From Acidimicrobiaceae bacterium (lineage in GTDB: Bacteria; Actinomycetota; Acidimicrobiia; Acidimicrobiales; RAAP-2), in assembly GCA_003138815.1 (NCBI GenBank), contig PLHD01000054.1, forward strand, positions 1 to 62,175: 62,175 bases of DNA. Reading direction: 5' to 3'. Below, piece after piece: positions 114 through 38,947 of this stretch (its first letter is position 1; each line of letters begins with the position of its first letter). The position numbers and the translations under genes were made by a program. The notes beneath the pieces were generated by a model that worked only from the letters and a program-made list of their open reading frames with translations, made no database searches and had not been told where the DNA came from.

Positions 114-168
114 CAGTGCTTTAATATTCCTGATCAGGGGGTTATGATCAGTGACTCAGCATCGACAT

Positions 169-234
169 TAAGTTACCACTTTCCGAGAAATAAGTTATCA
201 TTGACATTTACTAATGCCAGTGATAACTTATTTC
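169..234 (+). promoter_or_regulatory. Palindromic promoter/operator of the AlbA-RecG-like gene
   Basis: A 14-base perfect inverted repeat (187-200 and 221-234) has a TTGACA -35 box (201-206) between its arms and a TAACTT -10 box (224-229) inside the right arm; the spacer is 17 bases. A third copy of the half-site TAAGTTAYCA lies at 169-178, 22 bases upstream of the copy at 191-200. The start codon is at 239, so the mRNA would be leaderless or nearly so. A protein bound to the arms would cover the promoter; autoregulation is inferred. Confidence 0.65.
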
Positions 235-238
235 CTCA

Positions 239-1954
239 ATGGTTGAAAGTTCCGACGCCCTTACTGCCGCCATCGATGAACTGATCGCTGGCGTGCTCGG
301 AGGCGGCCAAGTTGACCCTCACGAAGGTCAAATTCTCGACTGCAAGGAGGATCCTTCCCGCCGTGGCGTACGCGGCGTGCTCGAACCCGGCCACCAGCAA
401 TCTGATGCCCTGGCCAAGACAGTGGCCGACGCGGCATCCTGCTTCGCCAACGCCGACGGCGGCGTCGTCGTCGTCGGCGTTGATGACAAAGCCACCGGGC
501 CGTCGGCCTTCATAGGAACCCCCTGCGACACGGCGTGGCTGCAGAACCGTATCCGCCAACTGGTCGGCATTGAAGTTCAGGTCATGGAAGTAACCGTTGA
601 AGGAAATCGCATTGTTACCGTCGCGGTCGAACCTTCGTCGATTCCTGTTGCCGACAGTTCTGGCAGGTATCGGCGGCGCCAGGGCCGTGACTGCCAGGCA
701 ATGACTGGCGCGGAACTCGGGCAGTTTTCTGTTGATCGGTCTGGTACAGACTGGTCGTCTGCGCCGTCGTCTGCCACATTCTCCGATACCGACCCCGCCG
801 CGATGCTTCAACTGCGCGAATGGCTTCGACAATCGGCCGAAGCTTCCCGCGAGGACCTTGCGGCTAGGGACGACCGTGCTCTTCTCCATCAACTCGGATT
901 GAGCACACCTGACGGCAAGCTCAATCGAGCGGGCGAACTGCTTTGTGTCAGGCTTCCTGGACGTGGGCCCCTCATTGATTTCATCTTCAGGCCAGCTCCT
1001 GGTGCCGACACCGAGTTGCGACTTGACCCGAGCGAGGCACCGCTCGCAATCGTGCTCTCCGAAGTTGAGGCGGCCATCAATGGCCACAACCCAGTCTTCA
1101 TTCTCCCAGCTGGACTCACGGTCGGCCAAATTCGAGCTCTTCCTGAACTGGCCCTGCGAGAGGCACTCGTGAACGCGGTCGCTCACCGCGACTGGGCTGC
1201 ACAGGGTCCCATCCGAGTGCAGTTGGAAGGAACGATGTTGACCGTCACCAATCCGGGTGGCTTTCTTCCAGGAGTGACCGCAGAGACTGTCATTACGGCT
1301 CCACCGCGATCACGTAATTCACAGCTCGCAAGGGCCCTTCGGGGGTTGCGTTTGGCGGAGTCGGAAGGCATCGGCGTCGACCGGATGTACCGGGAAACCG
1401 TCCGTCAGGGACTGCCCACCCCGGACATTGAAGAATTCCCCGACGGCAAAGGCATCCGCTGTGTCCTAATGGGGGGACCACCCGATATGGCCGTCATCGG
1501 TGTAGTGAGCAGCTTGCCGCATCCAGCTAGCCAGGACGTCGACATTCTCTTGCTGCTCAACAGACTTCTGACGGTGGCGACCGTTAACGCCACTCAACTC
1601 GCTCCAATCATCCAGAAGTCACGGGCGCAAGCGGTAGCCGCGATCGAAAGGGCCTTGGAAGCCGAACTAGTGGTCAAGTCAAGTCAAGTTAGCTACTACC
1701 GACTCGCTGATGGTCCGCGGCACGCGCTCGCTAAAAAACTGCCCTATATGCGTAGGACAGAGGCGGAGTACGCGAAAGTCATTGGTGACCTTCTCGCGGC
1801 CAGCGGAGAGATCCGAGCCAGGGACCTGATCGACGTCTGCGGAATCAAGCCTGTTCGGGCGTCACAAGCCCTCTCTCAGGCGGTCGAGAGCGGACTGCTT
1901 GAGCGTCATGGCGAATTGGGTGCCGGCGTCTACTACACCTTGAAGGCGCATTAG
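239..1954 (+). CDS. AlbA_2/Schlafen-type DNA-binding protein with RecG-like ATPase domain
   Basis: This 571-residue protein combines an N-terminal AlbA_2/divergent-AAA4 (Schlafen-related) region (about residues 25-150; DCKEDPS near the start) with a GHKL-type ATPase domain (HATPase_c_4). The latter shows EALVNAVAHRDW near residues 310-321 and a NPGGF motif. The C-terminal third resembles winged-helix segments. Proteins of this kind are annotated as transcriptional regulators or 'ATP-dependent DNA helicase RecG-related', and are often found in mobile or defence regions; the precise role is unknown. Base composition is visibly less GC-rich than the rest of the window, and the gene stands alone between a terminator and a tRNA gene. 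The start is fixed by the promoter ending nine bases upstream. Horizontal acquisition is inferred. Confidence 0.8.
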   Translation: MVESSDALTAAIDELIAGVLGGGQVDPHEGQILDCKEDPSRRGVRGVLEPGHQQSDALAKTVADAASCFANADGGVVVVGVDDKATGPSAFIGTPCDTAWLQNRIRQLVGIEVQVMEVTVEGNRIVTVAVEPSSIPVADSSGRYRRRQGRDCQAMTGAELGQFSVDRSGTDWSSAPSSATFSDTDPAAMLQLREWLRQSAEASREDLAARDDRALLHQLGLSTPDGKLNRAGELLCVRLPGRGPLIDFIFRPAPGADTELRLDPSEAPLAIVLSEVEAAINGHNPVFILPAGLTVGQIRALPELALREALVNAVAHRDWAAQGPIRVQLEGTMLTVTNPGGFLPGVTAETVITAPPRSRNSQLARALRGLRLAESEGIGVDRMYRETVRQGLPTPDIEEFPDGKGIRCVLMGGPPDMAVIGVVSSLPHPASQDVDILLLLNRLLTVATVNATQLAPIIQKSRAQAVAAIERALEAELVVKSSQVSYYRLADGPRHALAKKLPYMRRTEAEYAKVIGDLLAASGEIRARDLIDVCGIKPVRASQALSQAVESGLLERHGELGAGVYYTLKAH

Positions 1955-2414: not shown

Positions 2415-2488
2415 TGGAGCGGGCGACGGGAATCGAACCCGCGTTCTCAGCTTGGGAAGCTGATGTTCTGCCGCTGAACTACGCCCGC
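2415..2488 (-). tRNA. tRNA-Gly (anticodon CCC)
   Basis: Read on the minus strand, the acceptor stem GCGGGCG pairs with CGCCCGC, the anticodon loop TTCCCAA gives CCC, and the T-arm contains GGTTCGATTCCCG. The discriminator is T and CCA is encoded (2415-2417). Mature length is 71 nt before CCA, normal for tRNA-Gly. Confidence 0.95.
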
Positions 2489-38639: not shown

Positions 38640-38947
38640 GGTTCGATCATGGCACGAGGAATGGCGACGCACGCGGGAAACCTCGCCCGGTCGAATGGGC
38701 TGCTCCAGGGGTCGAGCCGCGCCGGCACCCCTTCTCGCGGGTCCGCCGCCACGGCGCCAATGTGGTCGTCGGCCGCTGCAATGCCTCGCCGGGCCGCGAC
38801 CTTTTGCAGCGGGCATGTCGCGGGGTCAAGGTCGACCACCGGTGCGGGCCACGGGCCGTTCTGCGGGTGAAGCGTGGATCACGCGCCTTATAGAGTCCTT
38901 AGTTATCATGCACGCTTCCGTCACCCTCCTTACGTAGCCTGCTCCGG
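38640..38947. other. Intergenic region without a recognised gene
   Basis: Several short overlapping frames exist but none has protein-like features. The right end holds TAGCCT (38935-38940), seven bases before the start of the next gene. Confidence 0.5.

Follow-up and report, generated by a model that had tools for sequence, protein, structure and literature searches.

A conserved palindrome as the probable autoregulatory operator of a Schlafen-ATPase-winged-helix gene

Winged-helix repressors of the MarR/ArsR type often bind their own promoters, and type II toxin-antitoxin operons are autorepressed. Links between Schlafen-type effectors of bacteria and phage defence are emerging and, according to the main text of PMC12839542, the backup effectors listed for BREX and BREX-related systems include Schlafen RNases in fusion with a minimal histidine kinase and a wHTH; the terms "operator", "inverted repeat" and "autoregulat" have 0 occurrences in that main text. 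The solved protein most similar to the one studied here, DIP2311 of Corynebacterium diphtheriae, is a structural-genomics entry (PDB 3lmm) whose title presents it merely as a protein. We found no account of the operators of the Schlafen-ATPase-winged-helix family in the literature searched, which lacked most subscription papers and preprints. Autoregulation itself is ordinary; no Schlafen-type gene with the design described below turned up in that literature.

Here we describe the DNA upstream of such a gene in an Acidimicrobiaceae draft genome of 2.53 Mb. The gene lies in a stretch of 62,175 nucleotides, which was analysed as a whole and is called the window below; the window begins at a contig end.

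Half-sites, palindrome and promoter-like elements

The first-pass annotation had proposed a three-half-site operator built from TAAGTTAYCA, with copies at 169-178, 191-200 and, inverted, 221-230. All three copies are present at these places, as TAAGTTACCA at 169-178 (+) and as TAAGTTATCA at 191-200 (+) and 221-230 (-), and the reading as an operator was retained, but the core unit proved to be one long palindrome accompanied by a weaker accessory site. This imperfect palindrome covers 48 bp at 187-234, with 22-nt arms (187-208 and 213-234) around a 4-nt centre and 20/22 positions complementary, and its downstream end is 4 bp short of the ATG. The left half-site (191-200) and the right, inverted one (221-230), which includes a -10-like hexamer, are the outer parts of the palindrome. 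The accessory half-site (169-178) lies 22 bp upstream in direct orientation. A possible fourth site, GTTATGATCA at 141-150 (+), is weak and tentative; it was matched by eye, and the block around it aligns in the orthologous loci L040 and L041. With up to one mismatch, TAAGTTAYCA had four matches in the 62 kb of the window, of which three belong to this cluster; 0.31 matches would be expected, and 0/100 shuffles reached four. The cluster at 169-230 is not due to chance.

As had also been annotated, TTGACA lies between the arms (201-206, +) and a -10-like element, TAACTT (224-229, +), lies inside the inverted copy. The latter fits TANNNT and has an extended -10 context (TGATAACTT); the two hexamers are 17 bp apart, and the ATG (239) follows 9 bp past TAACTT. 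In actinobacteria TANNNT is read as a -10 element, and leaders may be short or absent. By eye, TANNNT occurs 8-9 nt ahead of the ATG in all four relatives with upstream DNA (L040, L041, L042 and L044), and no Shine-Dalgarno-like sequence was seen before the ATG at 239. A leaderless start of the gene is plausible. The TTGACA/TAACTT pair was missing from the list of a mechanical sigma-70 scan, which gave two other promoter-like sites, at 121-148 and 173-201 (0.7 expected by chance). We also noticed by eye that the palindrome at 187-234 renders the promoter-like elements almost symmetric, so that transcription could also run leftward from there.

The exact sequence TAAGTTATCA occurs twice in the draft genome, both times at the operator. 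With one mismatch it has 9 matches, compared with 16 for the reversed control pattern; across the genome the 10-mer by itself shows no enrichment, only clustering at this locus. The pair AAGTTATCA-N20-TGATAACTT with up to three mismatches has one occurrence in its own genome and one each in genomes G043, G082 and G083, each time about 10 bp ahead of the Schlafen-like gene. The same search gave no match in G070, where a contig end cuts the gene copy; in G043 the reversed control of the pair had a match as well. Of 198 genomes searched for the exact pair TAAGTTATCA-N10..30-TGATAACTTA, one had it, namely the gene's own. A search for TAAGTTAYCA pairs elsewhere in the genome, which the first-pass annotation had suggested, thus led to one address, at the Schlafen-like gene, in the four genomes with the pair. 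One pair per genome speaks for a single, self-directed target, and on the strength of this address in each of four genomes the site of a global regulator was rejected.

The encoded protein and its orthologues

The gene at 239-1954 (+) encodes a 571-aa protein in which Pfam, a structure model and structural matches distinguish a Schlafen/AlbA_2 domain, a HATPase and tandem winged helices. The Schlafen/AlbA_2 domain (residues 1-170; 239-748, +) matched PF04326 with E 9e-11 (42.8 bits, curated cut-off 25.3) and resembled SLFN13, SLFN11, SLFN5, SLFN14 and the SAMD9 tRNase domain in structure, with Z ~9. Residues 236-415 (944-1483, +) correspond to a GHKL/histidine-kinase-type ATPase (HATPase_c_4, PF13749, E 1e-13, 51.5 bits, cut-off 26), a fold backed by matches to histidine kinase CA domains and to PDK (Z ~9). 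Two winged helices are predicted, one at residues 417-490 (1487-1708, +) from its secondary structure and a CadC-type match (Z 9.5) and the other at residues 506-571 (1754-1951, +) from its secondary structure and matches to Zalpha, DsrD and MntR (Z 9-10). The secondary structure is that of the AlphaFold2 model, which is confident (mean pLDDT 91.1, pTM 0.73) and has both winged helices at the C-terminus. The domain-level structural matches assigned the N-terminal part to Schlafen/SAMD9 nucleases, the middle to histidine-kinase ATPases and the C-terminal part to winged helices, with Z ~9-11, little above the tool's "middling" level. For the whole chain, a profile of 52 relatives matched PDB 3lmm (2.9e-128), Schlafens (best 1.1e-9) and AdcR (1.3e-4), and Foldseek with VIA placed 3lmm first (Z 35.9, rmsd 15.5 over 475 residues). 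Of the earlier name for the gene, AlbA/RecG-like, the first half is borne out by the PF04326 score, but the second had to be abandoned: the 9 Pfam families listed for the protein with E values up to 1 include no helicase motor family, and the nearest solved structures are 3lmm and then, far behind, Schlafens.

The Schlafen nuclease-site motif (E...E/D-x-K...D) aligns with the SLFN8 and SLFN11 chains, and its acidic residues are present. In the 52-row alignment of relatives, E29 is kept in 30/30 rows that have a letter there (22 rows are gapped, partly because they were cut at the match), D or E occupies position 34 in 37/37 lettered rows (15 of 52 gapped), and D83 is found in 44/52 rows. We take the counterparts of E29, D/E34 and D83 to be catalytic in Schlafens, with which the entry titles SLFN11 E209A and SLFN14 E211A agree. 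The protein is a putative RNase. As a separate observation, prokaryotic Argonaute-type models of PADLOC matched the ATPase region of the gene (239-1951) with E 5e-11 to 2e-9, which hints at a recurrence of this ATPase type in defence proteins.

Orthologues with intact upstream DNA are available from four loci, L040 (90% protein identity), L041 (84%), L042 (79%) and L044 (69%); a fifth, L043 (80%), was excluded from the upstream comparison, its gene copy being cut by a contig end. Upstream similarity in the alignment is limited to roughly the last 75 bp, and a weaker block reaches about -118 in L040 and L041. When palindrome centres lying 10.5 to 69.5 bp upstream of the ATG, in half-integer positions, were compared, the centre at 28.5 bp (27.5 in L042) was the best in the window and in 4/4 orthologues, with 18 of 20 possible pairs in the window, 13 in L040, 16 in L041, 13 in L042 and 15 in L044. 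Absence of the repeat upstream of close homologues had been named as the result that would speak against an operator; the opposite was observed, in that all four relatives with upstream DNA keep the palindrome. Conservation of the site at the promoter of the gene itself, as expected of an autoregulatory operator, thus holds for 4/4 orthologues in addition to the window.

TTGACA is also seen in L040, L041 and L042; in L044 it is replaced together with the central sequence, and palindromy is retained. By eye, the 22-bp spacing of the accessory site recurs in L040 and L041 and is degenerate in L042, and no accessory half-site was seen in the upstream DNA of L044. The winged helices of L044 diverge from those of the window protein more than the winged helices of closer relatives do, which fits co-evolution with the operator without proving it, since the whole L044 protein is more distant. 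One position is changed symmetrically in the two arms of L044; this was considered as proof of covariation and dropped, as the position varies freely in the other relatives.

The recognised neighbours of the orthologues vary and comprise ETF genes, an AadA-like gene, AMP-binding and acyl-CoA dehydrogenase genes, and an integrase fragment (20 flanking ORFs scanned, 10 of them without a Pfam match at E 1e-4); an acyl-CoA dehydrogenase neighbour is common to L042 and L043. Given these differences in recognised neighbours, the one target seen in common is the Schlafen-like gene. PADLOC gave no match to a BREX model on 10 orthologue-flanking ORFs, and one match to the candidate model PDC-S09 (E 2e-8).

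Several features of the setting deserve mention in their own right. A tRNA-Gly(ccc) gene lies at 2415-2488 (-) of the window, with its 3' end toward the Schlafen-like gene, and no att repeat was found. The G+C content of 1-2400 is 0.50-0.63 per 300 bp compared with 0.67 for the window, as at the edge of a genomic island. Upstream of a homologue with 34-35% identity there is likewise a tRNA-Gly(ccc) close by (L015:846-917), and ~0.7 kb upstream of the L044 orthologue an open frame (L044:1-564, -) carries a phage-integrase N-terminal domain.

A probable autoregulatory operator and its alternatives

We give a probability of about 0.72 to the palindrome being a single-target autoregulatory operator, probably repressive, that is bound by the winged helices of the encoded protein. 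The first-pass annotation had likewise suggested that the operator is bound by the gene's own product. This is probably correct: the palindrome is kept in 4/4 relatives, the pair has one address in four genomes, and two winged helices are modelled in the protein. That the operator acts on the Schlafen-like gene is well supported too. The tight repression predicted in the annotation would follow from its overlap with the promoter-like elements, and the operator probably represses. The protein, presumably a dimer with two winged helices per subunit, would bind the palindrome at both arms and, with lower strength, the accessory half-site that lies 22 bp further upstream. Once bound, it would cover both promoter-like hexamers and the spacer between them, most likely blocking RNA polymerase and limiting its own synthesis. 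Its release, perhaps linked to the ATPase, would allow more of the Schlafen-like putative RNase to be expressed.

The symmetry of the site could also have its origin in RNA, the palindrome being a hairpin in a longer 5' leader that starts upstream of 187 and serves translation control or is bound or cleaved by the Schlafen domain. In structural terms this is the main rival. The 48 nt indeed folded as RNA far better than shuffles in 4/5 sequences (z -9.2, -3.9, -8.1 and -5.9), but L042 folded poorly (z -0.7), and as single-stranded DNA both L040 and L042 did so. In the palindrome alignment 82.7% of the cells pair, above 500/500 shuffles and every slid version, 5/22 pairs change on both sides (reached by 45/500 shuffles), and the covariation score of 0.255 was reached by 3/500 shuffles. 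However, similar pair counts also arise from palindromic operators and not from RNA hairpins alone, and an A.C mismatch occurs at the same position in 4/5 palindrome sequences. A promoter-like site exists further upstream, at 121-148; against this stand the promoter-like elements inside the palindrome, of which the -10-like one keeps its distance from the ATG in the relatives, and the dyad spacers of 20-29 nt in several homologues, which are typical of operators. The search for known RNA families in 1-600 gave just sub-threshold matches to microRNA models, within the coding region. On balance, a hairpin is quite unlikely to be what is conserved here. The idea that the operator serves a different, host-encoded regulator fares similarly and appears improbable to us: many genes have such sites and nothing specific favours it, whereas the pair has one copy in each of the four genomes, the site persists with the Schlafen-like gene amid different neighbours, and the half-site spelling diverges along the protein family.

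Binding of the operator by the gene's own protein may have another outcome than simple repression, namely activation or holding the level constant. The accessory upstream site is where activators can sit, and the promoter of L044, having lost TTGACA, may need help. Yet the strongest and best-conserved arms overlie the core promoter-like elements. Binding over core promoter elements normally excludes polymerase, and we consider a mainly activating or homeostatic role unlikely. Finally, the gene looks mobile, with recognised neighbours that differ in relatives and a tRNA-Gly adjoining it in the window, and the palindrome might be a recombination, terminal-repeat or att site instead of a regulatory one. 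The distance from the ATG is fixed, with a 1-bp shift in L042, and this argues otherwise, as do the lack of any other exact copy in the window (there is one single-mismatch match, at 38899), the lack of repeats in 1900-2520 and the lack of a second site pair in the genome. With no second copy seen in window or genome, we rejected an att site or terminal repeat as highly improbable.

Relatives, repeated units and known systems

Beyond the orthologues, 102 loci with a match represented 97 distinct ones, of which 70 passed the filters for score, coverage and upstream sequence (27 dropped); reduction at <60% identity left 47 non-redundant representatives. In a 195-bp stretch around the start, compared with its own shuffles, 18/47 homologues had a significant inverted repeat (p<=0.05), compared with 7/76 control gene starts from the same DNA; the latter figure shows that the shuffle test is somewhat lenient. 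The excess over own shuffles was higher in the homologues (n=47) than in the controls (n=76), with a Mann-Whitney p of 1.9e-8. No significant repeat around the start was detected in the other 29/47 homologues, and in two of the 18 (L093 and L114) the repeat lies so close to the anchor residue, D38, that it is probably within the coding sequence. In L040 an unanchored scan placed another repeat above the operator. Several homologues have dyads with a 20-29 nt spacer, and the half-sites vary by lineage, with, for example, AGTTTGGCGGA in L016 and L018, TATGCCATACTT in L084 and GTTATATTT in L092. These patterns suggest that some relatives carry switches of their own with a different spelling, a few of them as short arrays.

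Such arrays appeared as upstream repeats with a lag of 50-52 bp and a score >=10 in 10/70 loci (L070, L089, L090, L091, L098, L099, L100, L110, L111 and L112); among lags of 15-100, none outside 50-52 had more than 2 loci. All 10 belong to a 23-locus group that has weak support (0.51) and that forms, together with the window's clade of 5, a 28-member group with support of 0.997. Arrays thus occur in 10/28 loci inside the well-supported group that includes the window and in 0/42 outside it. A family-wide period of 50-52 bp was rejected, since the mean score by lag over the 47 representatives is only weakly raised at this period (z 1.85) and the repeats are confined to one group. The copy number reaches 4.2 (L111), and some near-identical copies may be recent duplications. 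By eye, the spacers have diverged and the half-sites are still in register in L099, L070, L089 and L110, as they also are in L127, a 71% relative of L111 outside the 70 loci. In the L111 genome the repeat unit occurs four times with up to three mismatches, all within its own array. The outer sites of the window are 52 bp apart (169 to 221); this is a single distance, and we claim no array for the window. At another locus, L119, a perfect 97-bp tandem repeat of 2.1 copies (1241-1447 in reverse-complement coordinates) ends at the start of the homologue's open frame. As for mobile elements, no viral relative was confirmed in viral_contigs; 3 phage records match over at most 52% of the query, and plasmid records gave 22 matches, 1 of them covering at least 80%.

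The 50-52 bp arrays suggest cooperative or titratable control and provide a marker for finding more members. The lineage-specific half-site spelling, the single address and these arrays on a Schlafen-type gene make the system worth following: a private, easily recognised operator would be a direct handle on how cells keep putative Schlafen RNases quiet. From such an operator one would predict self-repression; the sequence on which to test this is already defined, and the operator would seem to evolve along with the protein. Extending the autoregulatory reading, we tentatively propose, as a possible if rather doubtful scheme, that the Schlafen-ATPase-winged-helix protein is a toxin and repressor in one polypeptide. 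The winged helices would park a latent RNase on its private operator, the palindrome in the window's clade and 50-52 bp units in close relatives, and a phage or stress signal read by the ATPase would cause release, with derepression of the gene and RNA cleavage.

The closest described protein, DIP2311, has the same domain order over nearly the whole chain and matches the window protein with a phmmer E of 2.7e-53, in addition to the profile and VIA scores for 3lmm given above; the high rmsd reflects domains that are placed differently in the two proteins. The BREX-linked effectors, as worded in the main text of PMC12839542, share the architecture of Schlafen domain, histidine-kinase-type ATPase and C-terminal winged helix, from which the window protein differs in having two winged helices. 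Its C-terminal part resembles repressors of the MarR/ArsR type, by profile AdcR and ZitR (E 1.3e-4 and 7.2e-4) and by structure CadC and MntR. In contrast to these, its winged helices are joined to a Schlafen domain and an ATPase, and the operator is a 48-bp palindrome, or 50-52 bp repeated units in some relatives. With type II toxin-antitoxin systems (cf. PMC7730913 and PMC3874152) it would share a potentially toxic effector controlled by a DNA-binding part on its own promoter; unlike in those systems, effector and DNA-binding part would here be one polypeptide.
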